From positions 1 to 35,930 of the forward strand of contig CABXRG010000010.1 of assembly GCA_902514615.1 (NCBI GenBank): a stretch of DNA of 35,930 bases, read 5' to 3'. Source of the DNA: an uncultured Bacteroidota bacterium (lineage in GTDB: Bacteria; Bacteroidota; Bacteroidia; Flavobacteriales; Flavobacteriaceae). Positions within the stretch are counted from its first letter, which is position 1. The number at the start of each line of letters is the position of its first letter. Shown here in pieces: positions 1 to 7,916 of the stretch. The notes below the pieces were generated by a model. The model saw only the letters and a list, made by a program, of their open reading frames with translations, searched no databases and had not been told where the DNA came from. The translations under genes and the position numbers were made by a program.

Positions 1-249
1 AATATCCTCATCTTTAGAACCAATTATAGCAATTACGCTATCTACTGGAGCAGTAGAACCTTCATCAATTCCAATGTGAAGTAAAATACCATCATGAAAT
101 GATTCAAATTCCATCGTAGCTTTATCAGTTTCTATTTCAGCTAGAATTTCTCCTTCTTTAACTGTATCTCCAACTTTTTTAAACCATTTTGCAAGAGTTC
201 CCTCTTCCATGGTATCGCTTAATCTTGGCATGTTTATTACTTCAGCCAT
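1..249 (-). CDS. pdhC: Pyruvate dehydrogenase E2 (dihydrolipoamide acetyltransferase), N-terminal part, cut by window edge
   Basis: The minus strand from the ATG at 249 reads 83 codons of a lipoyl domain and runs off the window. The lipoyl-lysine motif ETDKATMEFES puts the modified lysine at residue 43, and the start MAEVINMPRLSDTMEEG is typical of E2. The swinging lipoyl arm carries the acetyl group from E1 to CoA in the cytoplasmic PDH complex. It starts one base after the pdhA stop, so the two genes are co-transcribed, as usual in Flavobacteriia. The peripheral-subunit-binding and catalytic domains are not on this side in the window. A matching C-terminal portion is found at 6349-7245 on the opposite strand, so this gene may be broken just left of position 1. 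Whether the left flank continues into a complete E2 cannot be seen. Confidence 0.93.
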   Translation of the reverse strand, partial: MAEVINMPRLSDTMEEGTLAKWFKKVGDTVKEGEILAEIETDKATMEFESFHDGILLHIGIDEGSTAPVDSVIAIIGSKDEDI

Positions 250-250
250 A

Positions 251-1252
251 TTAATCTATTTTATGTTTAATAAAAGGATAGTCTTTTTGTTCATATACTA
301 CATCATACATGACAGATTTATCAGGAAAAGGAGAAGATTCTGCAAATTCTTCACATTCTGTTATGACAGCTTTGACCTTCAAATCAATTTTTTCTAAATC
401 AGACTTAGTCCCATGTTTCTTTGAAATTATAATTTTTTCAACCTGAGAAATTGGATCAATTTTTTTATATTCTTCAACCTCTTCTTTGGTTCTATATTGT
501 TGAGCATCTGACATGGAGTGCCCACGATATCTGTATGTTTTAATATCAAGAAGTGATGGACCTTTTCCAGCTCTTGCATGCTTTACACATTTATCAATAA
601 CCTCAGCTACTTTTACAGGATCCATACCATCAACTGGCATGGATGGCATTTCATATGGTTCTCCCAATTTCCATAAGTCTTGCTGACTGGTTGTCCTTGC
701 CACTGAAGTACCCATTGCATATCCATTATTTTCAACAATATATATTACTGGAAGTTTCCATAAAGCAGCAAGATTTATAGATTCATGAAATGCACCTTGT
801 CTAATAGCCCCATCTCCTAAAAAACATAAAGTAACACTGTCTCTTTTAAAATATTTATCTCCAAATGCAATACCTGTACCTAAAGGAATTTGTCCACCAA
901 CAATTCCATGACCACCAAAGAAATTATGTTTTTTAGAAAAAATATGCATTGAACCACCTAGACCACCTGACGTTCCAGTTGATTTTCCAAATAATTCTGC
1001 CATTACAAACTTTGGATCTTCTCCAAGACCTATAGCGTGGACATGACTTCTGTATGAGCTTATCATTCTATCTTTCTTAGGATCCGTTGAGTGAAGACAC
1101 CCTGCCAATACTGCCTCTTGCCCATTATAAAGGTGAAGGAAACCTCGAATCTTTTGTTGAATATACTTAGCAGCAAGCTTATCCTCAAACTTTCTCCAAA
1201 GAAGCATGTTTTCATACCAATTTAAATAGGTCTTTCCAGTAATTTTTTTCAT
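251..1252 (-). CDS. pdhA: Pyruvate dehydrogenase E1 component, alpha subunit
   Basis: A 333-residue thiamine-diphosphate enzyme of the E1-alpha family, which with E1-beta decarboxylates pyruvate and acetylates the E2 lipoyl arm. The ThDP/Mg motif begins with GDG at residues 146-148 and ends with NN at 175-176. The loop with RYRGHSMSD near residue 250 corresponds to the phosphorylation-loop region of E1-alpha. I chose the ATG at 1252 (MKKITGKTYLNWYENM). A longer open frame up to 1381 would overlap murF and shows no family resemblance. A promoter-like pair at 1288-1318 lies just upstream and supports this start. E1-beta is not adjacent, which is normal in Flavobacteriia. The gene is divergent from murF and one base upstream of the E2 start. 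Confidence 0.95.
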   Translation of the reverse strand: MKKITGKTYLNWYENMLLWRKFEDKLAAKYIQQKIRGFLHLYNGQEAVLAGCLHSTDPKKDRMISSYRSHVHAIGLGEDPKFVMAELFGKSTGTSGGLGGSMHIFSKKHNFFGGHGIVGGQIPLGTGIAFGDKYFKRDSVTLCFLGDGAIRQGAFHESINLAALWKLPVIYIVENNGYAMGTSVARTTSQQDLWKLGEPYEMPSMPVDGMDPVKVAEVIDKCVKHARAGKGPSLLDIKTYRYRGHSMSDAQQYRTKEEVEEYKKIDPISQVEKIIISKKHGTKSDLEKIDLKVKAVITECEEFAESSPFPDKSVMYDVVYEQKDYPFIKHKID

Positions 1253-1287
1253 ACAAATTAATTGAAGTCTGTTATTATAAGACGAAG

Positions 1288-1318
1288 CAAAAATACTCAT
1301 TTCTTTAGTATATTGCAA
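1288..1318 (-). promoter_or_regulatory. Candidate pdhA promoter (Bacteroidota type)
   Basis: On the minus strand a TTG (1318-1316) is followed after 20 bases by TATTTTTG (1295-1288), fitting the TTG-N(17-23)-TAnnTTTG pattern known for Bacteroidota. Transcription would start near 1283, leaving a leader of about 30 bases before the pdhA ATG at 1252. Seen by pattern only. Confidence 0.5.
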
Positions 1319-1328
1319 TAAAATTAGA

Positions 1329-2609
1329 GTGGACACAAAAAAATTACATTCTTTATTCACTTCATCTACTGGAGTGTCCATAGATACTAGAAAAATTAGT
1401 AAAGATGAAATATTTTTTTCATTGAAGGGTGACAGTTTTGATGGAAATAAATTTGCCCTAGAAGCTATAAATAAAGGAGCTAAATTTTCTGTGGTTGACG
1501 ATGAAAAATTAAAAGATATAAATGAAAAAATTATTTATGTTAAAGATGCATTAAAGGCTCTTCAAGAATTAAGTAATTACCACAGATCTCTTTTTGATAC
1601 AAAAGTAATTGGAATAACTGGCAGCAACGGAAAAACTACAACTAAAAACTTAATTTACTCAATTCTTTCTCAAAGCTATACTGTTATCAAAACTGAAGGT
1701 AATCTTAATAACCATATAGGTGTTCCTATTTCACTTTTAGATATTAATAACGATGTTGAAATAGCAGTTATAGAAATGGGCGCTAATCATGTAGGAGAGA
1801 TTAAAACTCTATGTGAAATTGCAATGCCAGACTTTGGATTAATTACCAATTACGGACTAGCTCACCTAGAGGGATTTGGTGGGTTTAAAGGTGTAGTTAA
1901 AGGTAAAACTGAAATGTTTAACTATTTAACCCAAAATTACGGTCATATAATTCTGAATAATGATGATGATCTTCAAATTGAAAACTGTAAAGGAGATCTA
2001 GCTATAACTTTCGGACAAAAGGAAGATTCTGAATATATTTTTAAATATAAAAAAGATCCAAATTTTCTATCAATAGAAAATGATGGTGATAAATATAAAT
2101 GTGAAATCTATGGTGATTATAATTATGCAAATGTTGCTGCTAGCATAACTATTGGAAAATTTCTTGACTTATCTAGTTCTGAAATACAGAAAGGATTAAC
2201 CTTATTTAAAAATGATTCAAATAGATCAGAAATTATAAGTTTTGGAAATAATACGGTTTATTTAGATGCTTATAATGCAAATCCTACTAGCATGAAAGCT
2301 GCGATATCAAATTTTGAGAATAACACTCCGAATAATAAAATTCTAGTTCTTGGTGATATGTATGAACTAGGTGATTACTCTAAAATAGAACACCAAAAAA
2401 TTATTGATTTTATTGATAATAAAGATTATTTAAAAGTTTACTTAGTTGGAGAAAACTTTTATAATTGTAACACTCAAAGTAATTACTTTGAAACTTATAA
2501 GTCTTCAAAAGAAATGTCAAAGACAGTTAAATTAATAGATAATAATTCAACTAATATTTTAATCAAGGGTTCAAGAGGTTTGGAATTAGAAAGCTTAATT
2601 ATTAATTAG
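1329..2609 (+). CDS. murF: UDP-N-acetylmuramoyl-tripeptide--D-alanyl-D-alanine ligase
   Basis: A 426-residue Mur ligase that adds D-Ala-D-Ala to UDP-MurNAc-tripeptide in the cytoplasm, the last soluble step before MraY. The ATP-binding loop GSNGKTT is at residues 98-104, preceded by the MurF-like N-terminal stretch STGVSIDTRKIS; later the DAYNANPTSMKAA motif is typical of MurF. The start is a GTG at 1329 (MDTKKLHSLFTSSTGVS), which matches the expected N-terminus; there is no suitable ATG nearby. The gene is outside the dcw cluster, as usual in Bacteroidota. Its 3' end overlaps the acetyl-CoA synthetase stop by 8 bases in convergent orientation. From memory, in Flavobacteriia murF follows gldJ; here the upstream neighbour is pdhA directly. 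Confidence 0.95.
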   Translation: MDTKKLHSLFTSSTGVSIDTRKISKDEIFFSLKGDSFDGNKFALEAINKGAKFSVVDDEKLKDINEKIIYVKDALKALQELSNYHRSLFDTKVIGITGSNGKTTTKNLIYSILSQSYTVIKTEGNLNNHIGVPISLLDINNDVEIAVIEMGANHVGEIKTLCEIAMPDFGLITNYGLAHLEGFGGFKGVVKGKTEMFNYLTQNYGHIILNNDDDLQIENCKGDLAITFGQKEDSEYIFKYKKDPNFLSIENDGDKYKCEIYGDYNYANVAASITIGKFLDLSSSEIQKGLTLFKNDSNRSEIISFGNNTVYLDAYNANPTSMKAAISNFENNTPNNKILVLGDMYELGDYSKIEHQKIIDFIDNKDYLKVYLVGENFYNCNTQSNYFETYKSSKEMSKTVKLIDNNSTNILIKGSRGLELESLIIN

Positions 2610-4491
2610 CTCCATTGATGATTTCTTCAACCACATCTGGATTAAGAAGTGTAGAAGTATCGCCTAAATTTCCAAAATCATTACTAGCAACTTTTCGTAA
2701 AATTCTTCTCATAATTTTACCAGACCTTGTTTTTGGAAGACCACTTACAATTTGGATTTTATCTGGTTTTGCTATAGGCCCAATAACTCTTCTTACTACA
2801 TCCACAATTTCACCTTTAACCTTATCATCTGAAGATTGTGAATTTATGATAACATATGCATAAATTCCCTCCCCTTTTATATCATGAGGGTAACCTACTA
2901 CGGCAGACTCAATAACTTCCTCGTGTTCATTAATTGCATTTTCCACTTCAGCAGTTCCCATTCTATGTCCAGATACATTAATAACATCGTCGACTCTTCC
3001 AAGAATCCTCAGATAACCATCATGATCTCTTTTAACTCCATCTCCAGTAAAGTACATTCCTTTATAGTTTGAGAAGTAAGTATTTATACATCTTTGATGA
3101 TCACCATATGTTGTTCTTATAATGGATGGCCAAGGAAATTTTATACAAAGATTACCTTGAACATTGTTTCCAACTAGCTCGTTACCTTCTGGATCAACAA
3201 TAACAGGATGAATTCCAGGCAATGGGAGTGATGCATGTGCAGGTTTATTTGGAGTTATTCCTGCTAATGCTGATATCATAATTCCACCTGTCTCAGTTTG
3301 CCACCAAGTATCTACCAATGGGCAATTACCTTTTCCAATGTTATCATGATACCAATGCCACGCTTCCTCATTAATGGGTTCTCCAACAGATCCAATTACT
3401 TTCAATGATTCTAAAGAGTTGTTTTTTAAAGGCTCAAGTCCATGGGCTTGTAATGCTCTAATAGCAGTTGGAGCTGTATAAAACTGATTAATTTTAAATT
3501 TATCTACTATATCCCAAAATCTACTCACATTTGGAAATGTTGGCACACCTTCAAACATAACAGTTGTTGCTCCACAAAGTAAAGGACCATAAACTATATA
3601 TGAGTGTCCAGTGATCCAACCAACATCAGCAGTACACCAATAAATATCATTCTCATCATATTGGAATACATTTTGAAACGTATATGCAGAATAAACCATA
3701 TAACCTGCAGATGAATGAACTACACCTTTTGGTTTACCTGTTGAACCAGAGGTATAAAGTATAAATAGCATATCTTCAGAATCTAAAACTTCAGCATCAC
3801 AAATATTAGTTTCTTCACTTACACAATCATGCCACCAGAAATCTCTTCCCTCAAACATCTCAACAGCTTGTTTGGTTCTTTCTAGTACTATAACACTTTC
3901 TATTGTTGAACATTTCTCAAGAGCTTCATCCACTACTGACTTGACTGGAATAGTTTTACTTCCTCTAAAATTACCATCTGATGTTAAAACCATTTTTGCT
4001 TGGCAATCATTAATTCTATCGGCTAATGAGGTAGAAGAAAATCCTGCAAAGACCACAGAATGAACAGCACCTACTCTTGCACATGCTAACATCGCGATAG
4101 CAGCTTCTGGAACCATAGGCATATATATAATAACCCGATCCCCCTTCTTTATTCCTTTTGATCTTAATGCATTTGAGAATCTACAAGTTTCTTCATAAAG
4201 TTTTTTGTATGTTAAATGGATTGGAGATTCATTTGGGTCATTAGGTTCCCAAATAATTGCTGTTTTATCTCCTCTTTCTTTTAGATTTCTTTCAAAAATA
4301 TTTTCAGTAATATTCAGTTTAGCATTCTGAAACCAGTTAATACTTACATTTTCAAAATCCCAATCAAGTACCTTATCCCATTTTTTTTTCCAAGTGAAAG
4401 AATCAGCTATTTCTGACCAAAATGATTCTGGATTTTTCTCGCTTAATTCATATTTTTTAAAATATTCTGAGAGGGAATTAATTCTTTGCAT
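2602..4491 (-). CDS. acs: Acetyl-CoA synthetase (AMP-forming)
   Basis: A 629-residue ANL-family adenylating enzyme that makes acetyl-CoA from acetate, ATP and CoA. Visible motifs in order are the phosphate-binding loop YTSGSTGKPKG (residues 246-256), the acetate/AMP-site motif DTWWQTETGG, the hinge and C-domain region SGHRMGTAEVENA, and PKTRSGKIMRR near the C-terminus. The catalytic lysine of that last motif, about residue 592, is also the site of regulatory acetylation in this family. The length is slightly below the usual 640-650. The gene starts two bases after the stop of the acetate-type symporter at 4494-6161, so uptake and activation of acetate look co-transcribed. Its tail overlaps murF by 8 bases. 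Confidence 0.96.
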   Translation of the reverse strand: MQRINSLSEYFKKYELSEKNPESFWSEIADSFTWKKKWDKVLDWDFENVSINWFQNAKLNITENIFERNLKERGDKTAIIWEPNDPNESPIHLTYKKLYEETCRFSNALRSKGIKKGDRVIIYMPMVPEAAIAMLACARVGAVHSVVFAGFSSTSLADRINDCQAKMVLTSDGNFRGSKTIPVKSVVDEALEKCSTIESVIVLERTKQAVEMFEGRDFWWHDCVSEETNICDAEVLDSEDMLFILYTSGSTGKPKGVVHSSAGYMVYSAYTFQNVFQYDENDIYWCTADVGWITGHSYIVYGPLLCGATTVMFEGVPTFPNVSRFWDIVDKFKINQFYTAPTAIRALQAHGLEPLKNNSLESLKVIGSVGEPINEEAWHWYHDNIGKGNCPLVDTWWQTETGGIMISALAGITPNKPAHASLPLPGIHPVIVDPEGNELVGNNVQGNLCIKFPWPSIIRTTYGDHQRCINTYFSNYKGMYFTGDGVKRDHDGYLRILGRVDDVINVSGHRMGTAEVENAINEHEEVIESAVVGYPHDIKGEGIYAYVIINSQSSDDKVKGEIVDVVRRVIGPIAKPDKIQIVSGLPKTRSGKIMRRILRKVASNDFGNLGDTSTLLNPDVVEEIINGAN

Positions 4492-4493
4492 TT

Positions 4494-6161
4494 CTATTTT
4501 GGATATCTTATACTTTCAACTAAAGCTTTAATTTTTTCTGGTGTTGGTTTTGTTAATCTTGATACAACTAAAGATACAATAAAGTTAATAATCATTCCAA
4601 TCGTTCCGATACCTTCAGGAGATATTCCAAACAAATAGTTTTCAGGTAAACCACTACCTCCGAGCTGAGGTTTAAAATATAAAATATATAAAGCTGTAAA
4701 AATAATTCCGGTTAGCATTCCAGCTATTGCACCTTCTTTATTCATTTTCTTATCAAAAATCCCTAGAATAATTGCAGGAAAAAAAGATGAAGCAGCTAAA
4801 CCAAAAGCTAAGGCTACTACTTCAGCCACAAAACCTGGTGGGTTTAATCCAGCTAAACCTGCAGCTACTACAGCCACAGCAATTGAAATTCTTGCAGCCC
4901 AAAGTTCTCCTTTCTCTGATATGTTAGGGTTAATATTCTTTTTCAAAAGATCATGGGATATAGAAGTTGATATAACTAATAAAAGTCCTGCTGCGGTTGA
5001 TAACGCTGCTGCTAGCCCACCCGCTACAATCAATCCAATAACCCATGGAGGTAAATTAGCAATCTCTGGATTAGCCAGTACCATAATGTCATTGTCTATT
5101 GTTAGTTCATTAACTTGAGTGTCTGCAACGTATTGAATTACACCATCTCCATTCTTATCATCAAATTCTAATAAACCAGTATTTTCCCAATTTTTAAACC
5201 AATCTGGCATTTCAGCATACTCAGCATTTGAAACTGTGTTTATTAAATTAACTTTTGCAAAAGCTGCTACAGCAGGAGCAGTAGTATATAAAATTGATAT
5301 AAATAAAAGAGCCCATCCAGCAGAAATTCTTGCATCTCGTACTTTAGGAACTGTAAAGAATCTAACAATAACATGAGGCAGTCCTGCAGTTCCAAACATC
5401 AAAGCTCCAGTTATAAAAAAAACATTGATTAAAGTAGTTCTATTTATATCAGTGTATTTATCAAAACCTAAATCAACTGATAATAGATTAAGCTTTTCTA
5501 AAAGATATACACCATCTAAGGTCTTACTTCCAAATCCCACTTGAGGGATTGGATTACCTGTTGCTTGCAGAGATAAATAAATAGCAGGAACTGTAAAAGC
5601 AAAAATTAAGACACAATATTGTGCTACCTGGGTATATGTGATGCCCTTCATACCTCCAAGAACAGCATAGAAAAAAACTATTGCAATACCGATAATTACT
5701 CCACTATCATAGGGTATTTCAAGGAATCGTGAGAAAGCTACACCCACTCCTTTCATTTGACCAACTACATATGTAAATGAGACAAAAATTGCACAAATTA
5801 AAGCAATAGTTCGTGCATTTTGTGAGTAATATCTTTCTCCTATAAAATCAGGTACTGTGAATTTTCCAAATTTTCTAAGATATGGTGCAAGACAAAGTGC
5901 TAATAGCACATATCCTCCGGTCCAACCCATTAAATATTGAGATCCTCCATAACCTAAGAATGAAATTATACCTGCCATGGAAATAAAAGATGCTGCTGAC
6001 ATCCAATCTGCAGCAGTAGCCATTCCATTTAAAACAGGGTGAATTCCACCACCAGCTACATAAAACTCTTTAGTGCTTTTTGCTCTTGACCAAATTGCTA
6101 TTCCAATATAAAGTGTAAATGTAATACCTACTAAAAAATATGTCCAAAATTGTGCATCCAT
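4494..6161 (-). CDS. Sodium:solute symporter, acetate permease (ActP)-like large subunit
   Basis: A 555-residue inner-membrane protein of the sodium:solute symporter family with many hydrophobic helices, starting MDAQFWTYFLVGITFTLYIG. SSS-type patches include the early helix with ATAADWMSAASFISMAG and FYAVLGGMKGITYTQVAQY. The close link to a DUF4212 small subunit upstream (one base between its stop and this ATG) and to acetyl-CoA synthetase downstream points to the two-component acetate/monocarboxylate-type symporter subfamily. About residues 332-345, in a loop between helices, contain DDKNGDGVIQY, which resembles a calcium-binding DxNxDG loop; I recall the same loop in this subfamily, but it is not a full EF-hand. 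Substrate is inferred from context and is not proven. Confidence 0.9.
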   Translation of the reverse strand: MDAQFWTYFLVGITFTLYIGIAIWSRAKSTKEFYVAGGGIHPVLNGMATAADWMSAASFISMAGIISFLGYGGSQYLMGWTGGYVLLALCLAPYLRKFGKFTVPDFIGERYYSQNARTIALICAIFVSFTYVVGQMKGVGVAFSRFLEIPYDSGVIIGIAIVFFYAVLGGMKGITYTQVAQYCVLIFAFTVPAIYLSLQATGNPIPQVGFGSKTLDGVYLLEKLNLLSVDLGFDKYTDINRTTLINVFFITGALMFGTAGLPHVIVRFFTVPKVRDARISAGWALLFISILYTTAPAVAAFAKVNLINTVSNAEYAEMPDWFKNWENTGLLEFDDKNGDGVIQYVADTQVNELTIDNDIMVLANPEIANLPPWVIGLIVAGGLAAALSTAAGLLLVISTSISHDLLKKNINPNISEKGELWAARISIAVAVVAAGLAGLNPPGFVAEVVALAFGLAASSFFPAIILGIFDKKMNKEGAIAGMLTGIIFTALYILYFKPQLGGSGLPENYLFGISPEGIGTIGMIINFIVSLVVSRLTKPTPEKIKALVESIRYPK

Positions 6162-6162
6162 G

Positions 6163-6348
6163 TTATTCTTCTAAGTTGTGTTTTTTATCAAGTTTGTTCA
6201 TGAGATAAACATATATAAAAATCAATATGACGAATATGTAAATTGATCCTTGTTGAGCAAACCAAAAGCCTAAAGGAAATCCTCCTAAATAAAAATTATT
6301 TAAGCTTTCTGCAAAGATGATTCCAAAACCAAAAGAAGAAACAAACCA
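6163..6348 (-). pseudogene. DUF4212 small symporter subunit, N-terminus missing at a rearrangement junction
   Basis: Sixty-one codons on the minus strand end in TAA at 6165-6163, one base before the symporter ATG. They read WFVSSFGFGIIFAESLNN, then GGFPLGFWFAQQGSIY, then LMNKLDKKHNLEE, which is the conserved C-terminal two thirds of DUF4212, including the second membrane helix. The family is normally about 80-95 residues and partners the large sodium:solute symporter. Here the similarity stops at the tryptophan codon (6348-6346). Upstream of it, in this frame, the sequence no longer looks like DUF4212 but is the reverse complement of a PDH E2 linker. No start codon in a suitable place is seen, so the gene is broken here by inversion or misassembly. 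Confidence 0.8.
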
Positions 6349-7245
6349 GTTGTAAAAGAAGAGCCTAAATTTGTTTCAACAACAATAGGTCCAAATGATA
6401 GACTACTAATCTCCCCTTTGGCAAGAAAACTAGCTGAAGAAAAAGGTATAGATATATCTTTAGTTAAGGGTTCTGGTGATAATGGTAGAATAATAAAAAG
6501 AGATATTGATTCATTCAAGCCTTCAAATTATTCTCAATTTTCACAACCAAGAGCTCATTTGTCTGAGTCATCCTATGAGATTCAAAACTCAACGATGAGA
6601 AAAGCTATAGCCAAAAGACTAGCTGACTCTAAATTTTCTGCACCTCATTATTACCTTAATATTGAACTAGAAATGGATAATATGATTTCATTTAGAAAGC
6701 AATTTATTCAAACTCAAAATATTAAAATTTCCTTTAATGATATTATTGCTAAAGCCGTGTCGTTATCTCTAGCTAAACATCCTAAAGTTAATTCAAGATG
6801 GTATGATGATAAAATAATTTTTAATGAACATGTTCACCTTGGAGTAGCTGTAGCTGTAGAAGATGGTTTAATTGTCCCTGTTGTTAAATTTGCTAACTCA
6901 AAAGATTTACCTAAAATTAATTCTGAAATTAAAGATTTTGCTGAACGCGCAAAGAATAAAAAGTTAACTCCTGCAGAGATTGAAGGAAGCACATTTACTA
7001 TTTCGAACCTTGGAATGTTTGGAATCGAAAGTTTTACTTCAATTATCAATCAACCTAATTCTGCTATACTTTCTATAGGAGCAATAGTTCAGAAGCCGGT
7101 CATAAAAAACAATGAAATAGTAATTGGAAATACTATGAAACTAACTTTAGCTTGTGATCATAGAACAGTAGATGGTGCTACTGGATCATTATTTTTAAAG
7201 ACTTTGAAAGAATATGTTGAAAATCCAGTTTCAATACTTGTTTAA
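6349..7245 (+). pseudogene. pdhC: Pyruvate dehydrogenase E2, C-terminal part without lipoyl domain (5' truncated)
   Basis: The plus strand reads about 298 codons of E2. A linker (VVKEEPKFVSTTIG) is followed by the peripheral-subunit-binding domain (LLISPLARKLAEEKGI, then GSGDNGRIIKRDID), a second linker, and the catalytic acyltransferase domain with the active-site motif DHRTVDGA close to the C-terminus. FSAPHYYLNIE, SNLGMFGIESFTSIINQP and NTMKLTLACDHR match flavobacterial PDH E2 rather than the oxoglutarate E2. There is no lipoyl domain in front. The frame is open back to 6304, but that part is the reverse complement of DUF4212. A TTG at 6418 is the first start-like codon and would cut into the binding domain. 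The stop overlaps the next gene (TAATG). It probably belongs with the N-terminal piece at 1-249. Confidence 0.85.
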
Positions 7246-7916
7246 TGAAAACTATAGTAATAACAGGAACTAGTTCAGGAATTGGTTATGAAATATGTGT
7301 TCAAGCTGCAAAACTTAATTATAGAGTAATTTCCATTTCGAGAAATATTGAACCTCTCAAAGAAATAGATGAAATTGAGTCTTATTCAGTTGACATTACA
7401 AATAGAACAAGCATTAATGATTTTGTTGATGATTTAAAAGTTAGAAACATAAAAATTGATATTCTCATAAATAATGCTGGTTTCTTAAGCAATGAATTAT
7501 TTACTAATACTTCTTATGAATCTTTTAAAGATACATTCGATGTTAATGTTTTTGGCCTTGCAGATATTACAAGAGCACTTATACCGATTATAAATAAAAC
7601 AGGTCATGTAGTAAATATAAGTAGTATTGGAGGAGTAAATGGTTCGAAGAAATTTCCTGGTCTTTCAGTTTATTCAAGTAGTAAGGCAGCTGTCATAGCT
7701 CTTACAGAAGTTCTTGCAGAAGAATATTTAGATGGACCATCATTTAATGTGTTAGCCTTAGGGGCAGTTCAAACCAAGATGCTGAGAGAGGCTTTTCCTG
7801 ATTATAATGCGGAGACAAAACCTAATGAAATGGCAAAATATATTATTGATTTTGCTGTAAATGGAAGTAAGTTATTTAATGGTAAACTTATTTCAGTTTC
7901 AAATTCAAATCCTTAG
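7245..7916 (+). CDS. Short-chain dehydrogenase/reductase
   Basis: A 223-residue classical SDR with a Rossmann fold. It shows the nucleotide-binding TGxxxGxG motif (T7 to G14), the structural NNAG motif in the middle, a serine in NISSIGG and the catalytic YSSSK with Tyr143 and Lys147. Substrate and preferred cofactor cannot be read from the sequence. The ATG shares one base with the E2 stop (TAATG), so the pair is translationally coupled and the right-hand side of the junction at 6349 appears native. Its stop overlaps the stop of the ABC ATPase gene by 4 bases in convergent orientation. Confidence 0.88.
   Translation: MKTIVITGTSSGIGYEICVQAAKLNYRVISISRNIEPLKEIDEIESYSVDITNRTSINDFVDDLKVRNIKIDILINNAGFLSNELFTNTSYESFKDTFDVNVFGLADITRALIPIINKTGHVVNISSIGGVNGSKKFPGLSVYSSSKAAVIALTEVLAEEYLDGPSFNVLALGAVQTKMLREAFPDYNAETKPNEMAKYIIDFAVNGSKLFNGKLISVSNSNP

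Follow-up and report, generated by a model that had tools for sequence, protein, structure and literature searches.

The pyruvate dehydrogenase (PDH) E2 gene of the window, that is, of the whole stretch of 35,930 nucleotides that makes up contig 10 of the draft genome G000 (G000:C10:1-35930), is split into two pieces on opposite strands, and this split is very probably a strand-switch chimera of multiple displacement amplification (MDA) and not biology. That the split is no biological feature, whatever produced it, is almost certain. The split is likely an artefact because 20 relatives keep E2 intact and because a similar second break is found in the same draft. The draft comprises 1.03 Mb in 40 contigs, is 80.56% complete and was compared within a set of 60 genomes (G000 included), of which 24 others belong to the same genus. 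The DNA alignments used as reference G017, the record FRAM18_bin151, titled Cryomorphaceae bacterium MED-G11.

Pfam searches placed the lipoyl domain at the left end of the window on the minus strand and the E3-binding and catalytic domains more than 6 kb away on the plus strand, as the original prediction had claimed (Table 1), so that in the window these three domains of E2 do not lie on one chain. The E2 N-part was 86-98% identical to that of 20 same-genus genomes and the C-part 72-91% identical in 20 relatives. The DUF4212 gene, found at a single place in a search of the whole G000 genome, lacks its first codons; it carries an upstream methionine in all 18 relatives, among the 20 retrieved, whose stretch reaches it.

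Table 1. Features at positions 1-7916 of the window.
Feature	Position	Strand	Evidence and remarks
PDH E2 N-part, lipoyl domain, 83 aa	1..249	-	PF00364 (Biotin_lipoyl), E 2e-20; open at contig end
pdhA, PDH E1 alpha, 333 aa	251..1252	-	PF00676 (E1_dh), E 1.2e-82; ATG at 1252
Mur ligase (murF-like)	1329..2609	+	PF08245/PF02875/PF01225; between pdhA and acs-like gene
acs-like gene	2602..4491	-	Open reading frame; 82-95% identical, equal position in relatives
Sodium:solute symporter	4494..6161	-	PF00474, E 9.1e-53
DUF4212 gene without first codons	6163..6348	-	PF13937, profile 19-78 of 79
Inverted junction	6346..6348	.	CCA fits DUF4212 (reverse strand) and E2 linker repeat
PDH E2 C-part, 299 aa: linker end, E3-binding domain, catalytic domain	6346..7245	+	PF02817 (E3_binding), E 8e-16; PF00198 (2-oxoacid_dh), E 3.3e-83
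SDR gene	7245..7916	+	PF00106, E 5.8e-41; downstream of E2

Taken at its longest, the pdhA frame extends to 1381 and runs into the beginning of the divergent Mur ligase frame (overlap 1329-1381); translation of pdhA probably starts from the ATG at 1252. The position of the Mur ligase matches that in relatives. The acs-like frame was named by its resemblance to acetyl-CoA synthetase, and the block formed by the DUF4212, sodium:solute symporter and acs-like genes (2602-6348) is conserved beside pdhA in 18 of 20 relatives, those whose stretch reaches it; we take it to be a possible module for acetate uptake and activation. The other window frames assigned by Pfam are housekeeping genes and a cell-wall/division cluster, with nothing unusual among them, and the remainder presumably encodes, by resemblance, ABC transporter parts, a ketoacyl synthase and gcvP. 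A literature search, in which records were represented by titles and the first part of abstracts, returned no paper on the PDH E2 locus at that level.

The PDH locus was retrieved from 20 of the 24 same-genus genomes. Four were left aside: the contigs of G010 and G011 begin within E2, and those of G012 and G024 are uninformative on the order of the E2 parts because they end in the symporter or acs-like gene, before pdhA. The pdhA gene, the two E2 parts and the SDR gene are adjacent and in one direction in the 20 retrieved loci (20/24), with pdhA directly upstream of E2 and the SDR gene after it in every case (20/20 for each). E2 forms a single frame of 410-453 aa in 19 of the 20, and DUF4212 stands at the far end of the locus in 18, the contigs of the remaining two beginning further in. 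The comparison with related genomes called for by the original prediction thus gave E2 parts adjacent on one strand wherever the locus was retrieved. G017 has the only broken E2 frame among the 20 relatives, owing to an in-frame stop within its E2 linker repeat, and its Mur ligase match is likewise in two pieces; both are likely to be errors in the bases or the assembly of this MAG.

Given this uniform order, the window represents a flipped arrangement produced by one join. Alignment to G017 showed that window positions 2-6348 correspond to the minus strand of 806765-813112, while positions 6346-35930 correspond to the plus strand of 813255-842858. A flip of positions 1-6345 recreates the order of the relatives, with the E2 linker still absent. 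The proposal that a single event accounts for both broken genes is therefore borne out by one inverted join and by the unflipped order that the relatives display. The proposal that a flip would rejoin the genes held for their order and not for an unbroken E2, since a gap of about 140 bp is left (142 bp in G017; 69-228 bp between the matched E2 parts in 20 relatives). This gap remains because codon 83 of E2 is the one at the contig edge, and the lipoyl domain as defined by Pfam ends seven codons before it.

The breakpoint had been placed at about 6348/6349; the broken DUF4212 gene and the E2 C-part do meet there, and the exact join is three shared bases at 6346-6348. Of the 22 relatives with a match on the DUF4212 side, 17 have it ending at 6348 and five have it extending 5-10 bases further. 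The match on the E2 side starts at 6346 in G017 and at 6331 in G002, where the likeness is longer and looser (76% identity). The bases shared at the join are accordingly CCA (3 nt) against G017 and ACCA (4 nt) against G002, and could reach six if the linker unit ends in AAA, the linker of G000 itself being absent from the draft. In G017 the distance between the joined sites is 6.5 kb, and their orientation is inverted. A region of 201 bp across the junction was contiguous in G000 alone among the 25 genomes compared and was absent from all 24 other same-genus genomes, 22 of which match its DUF4212 side. The join thus has the traits of MDA inverted chimeras: it is inverted with respect to the relatives, which stand in for the true genome, it spans less than 10 kb and it shows complementarity within 2-21 nt.

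The ratios of pN/pS against five relatives were 0.025-0.065 for the E2 N-part, 0.082-0.150 for the E2 C-part and 0.050-0.132 for DUF4212, of the same order as those of six neighbouring genes (0.026-0.273). This lack of decay in the broken halves says only that the break, if real, would be young.

The E2 linkers of all 20 relatives contain a tandem repeat encoding an 8-residue unit (24 bp; 18 bp in G007 and G020), in about 3-7 copies, which starts about 10 codons beyond the counterpart of window position 1. The contig probably stops at position 1 because of this repeat, where a short-read assembler would be expected to halt; the suggestion that the assembler stopped at an ambiguity agrees with its position. 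The linker is a coding minisatellite in 20 of the 20 species examined, its unit sequence and copy number varying between species, and this is real variation in hinge length that may merit a study of its own. We also expected the pdhA-side contigs of G011 and G010 to end at the E2 linker, and this expectation was rejected: the contigs carrying DUF4212 end earlier, about 2.4 and 3.9 kb past DUF4212, respectively, and only the E2-side contig starts of these two genomes fit a stop at the linker repeat.

The intact E2 junction was not found in the G000 draft, from which the linker and the DUF4212 start are absent; no other contig of G000 holds the DUF4212 start. Contig 3 (1-1933) begins with the genes located upstream of DUF4212 in G017 and, by the spacing of G017, ends about 1.6 kb short of the DUF4212 start, this 1.6 kb also being absent from the draft.

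Comparison of the starts of 21 other contigs and the window (439,068 bases in all) with 1.1 Mb of G017 showed that 17 of the 22 sampled contigs align, for about 304 kb in total with overlaps counted, and that local strand flips are present on contigs 7, 10 and 16. Same-strand breaks were seen on contigs 12, 15 and 18. Contig 16 was rejected as a third inverted join: G019 and G010 agree with G000 there, and the odd one is therefore G017, in which a 9.6-kb segment (G017:C1:305672-315326) is inverted with respect to all three and has only short inverted matches near its ends (up to 27 nt, 89%). Contig 11, a candidate join of distant loci, proved to be a paralogue match, G010, G012, G013, G015 and G022 being colinear with G000. 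Two inverted joins particular to G000, those of contigs 7 and 10, were thus left among the 22 sampled contigs, both within the first 6.4 kb of their contigs.

On contig 7 (1-2693) the first 1.76 kb is reversed. Two genes, both named by resemblance, are found at the join (near 1761-1763): a metB-like gene, which is cut some 73 codons in by the numbering of G003, and a GMC-oxidoreductase-like gene, close to whose end the join falls. The two parts lie on one contig, on opposite strands, in all 21 relatives holding both, 3 of the 24 being without one or both, and the join was absent in all 21 testable relatives. The distance between its joined sites is 2.8 kb in G003 and 2.3 kb in G017. The overlap at the join is 3 nt against G003 only; with other relatives the alignments vary between a gap of some 8 nt and an overlap of some 10 nt. 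The 1 kb missing at this join was not found in G000.

The original prediction had allowed a real inversion, a reversible inversion or an assembly or amplification chimera. The last of these is favoured because the junction occurs in no other genome, the overlap is short, the joined sites are less than 10 kb apart and a second join is present in the draft; the reversible inversion found no support and the real inversion is unlikely. In the excerpted text of Lasken and Stockwell (2007; PMC1855051), 475 chimeras were mapped from one amplified E. coli cell, of which 406 were inverted; 337 of these 406 joined sites less than 10 kb apart, and complementary bases were present at 93.5% of the inverted joins below 10 kb. 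The mechanism given there is that displaced 3' ends prime on nearby displaced strands, and the joins of contigs 7 and 10 both agree with this picture. An excerpt of a second study likewise reports that MDA increases inverted pairs (PMC3842359). If the DNA of G000 was itself amplified by MDA, as we infer, the copied strand would have read back into the DUF4212 gene and then switched to the opposite strand inside PDH E2, which lies nearby; the resulting chimera would have been retained by the assembler. The living cell would then carry an intact E2 gene. Some findings count against an MDA chimera, namely the overlap on contig 7 that varies with the relative and the absence of the intact junctions from the draft. 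So does the excerpted finding of PMC3842359 that the main effect of MDA is to shorten contigs, misassemblies being small and located mostly near contig ends.

A misjoin of ordinary unamplified reads by the assembler, seeded by the E2 linker repeat without any amplification chimera, is unlikely. It would suit a join at a tandem repeat shared by the linkers of all 20 relatives and the contigs of G010 and G011 that likewise begin within E2. However, the exact overlap of the joined sites is only 3-6 nt, the k-mers usually employed by assemblers are far longer than this, and the printed sequences at the contig 7 join have no tandem repeat. A real and recent inversion in the cell or its lineage, which would have split E2 and DUF4212 and disabled pyruvate dehydrogenase and perhaps the symporter, is very unlikely. 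The sequence is consistent with one inversion, and a segment inverted with respect to G017 is also seen on contig 16, in a region for which G019 and G010 share the arrangement of G000; the lack of decay suits a recent event, and a very recent inversion would look identical. Against this, the arrangement is absent from 24 other genomes, G000 has no second PDH-type E2, the gene-breaking join of contig 7 would require a second independent event and the expected left junction is absent from the assembly. Two copying errors seem far more probable than two draft-only inversions that break genes, one of them in the sole PDH-type E2. Even less likely than the inversion as such is the fuller scenario in which an inversion at the E2 linker minisatellite cut the sole PDH-type E2 and DUF4212 and a small-genome flavobacterium lineage lives without pyruvate dehydrogenase. 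Phase variation, with a reversible inversion turning E2 off and on, has hardly any chance of being the explanation. The geometry would allow it, but it is unsupported because exact inverted matches between 1-300 and 6200-6500 do not exceed 9 nt, because no recombinase was found in the 27 window frames scanned with Pfam (the acs, ABC, MlaE-like, KAS and gcvP frames lay outside the scan) and because the 20 relatives, across species, show one orientation. No inverted repeats linking the two ends were present among the inverted pairs listed (25 of 52).

The plus-strand piece as a duplicate of a complete E2 gene elsewhere was rejected: the refuting case raised at the outset, a second complete E2, was sought across the genome, and no other PDH-type E2 C-part was found in G000. 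The two other E2 C-part matches of G000 were 36% identical and belong to open frames 399 and 440 aa long. Four further lipoyl/biotinyl matches, including these two other E2s, fall within open frames that span 383-451 aa.

Little is at stake as biology if the split is an MDA chimera, the E2 gene being expected to be intact. Automatic annotation of the draft would nevertheless record PDH E2 as missing or split, DUF4212 as lacking its start and a metB-like gene as cut, and claims of gene loss or synteny based on draft G000 would likely be wrong. Were the inversion real, a small-genome bacterium would have lost a central enzyme.

Comparison with known systems places the window as follows. The PDH locus of the genus (20 genomes) has the same genes, in the same order as the window once positions 1-6345 are flipped; its E2 parts are adjacent on the same strand and its DUF4212 gene has a start, whereas the window has a split E2 and a DUF4212 gene without one. 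Invertible DNA switches, which act by site-specific recombination, share with the window a segment in inverted orientation and differ from it in that no long inverted repeats, recombinase (among the scanned frames) or second orientation were seen. The inverted chimeras of MDA, as described in the excerpt of PMC1855051, resemble the join of the window in being inverted, less than 10 kb apart, marked by few shared bases and arbitrary in the genes that they cut; they are known from amplified DNA, whereas the join of the window is known from assembled sequence alone.
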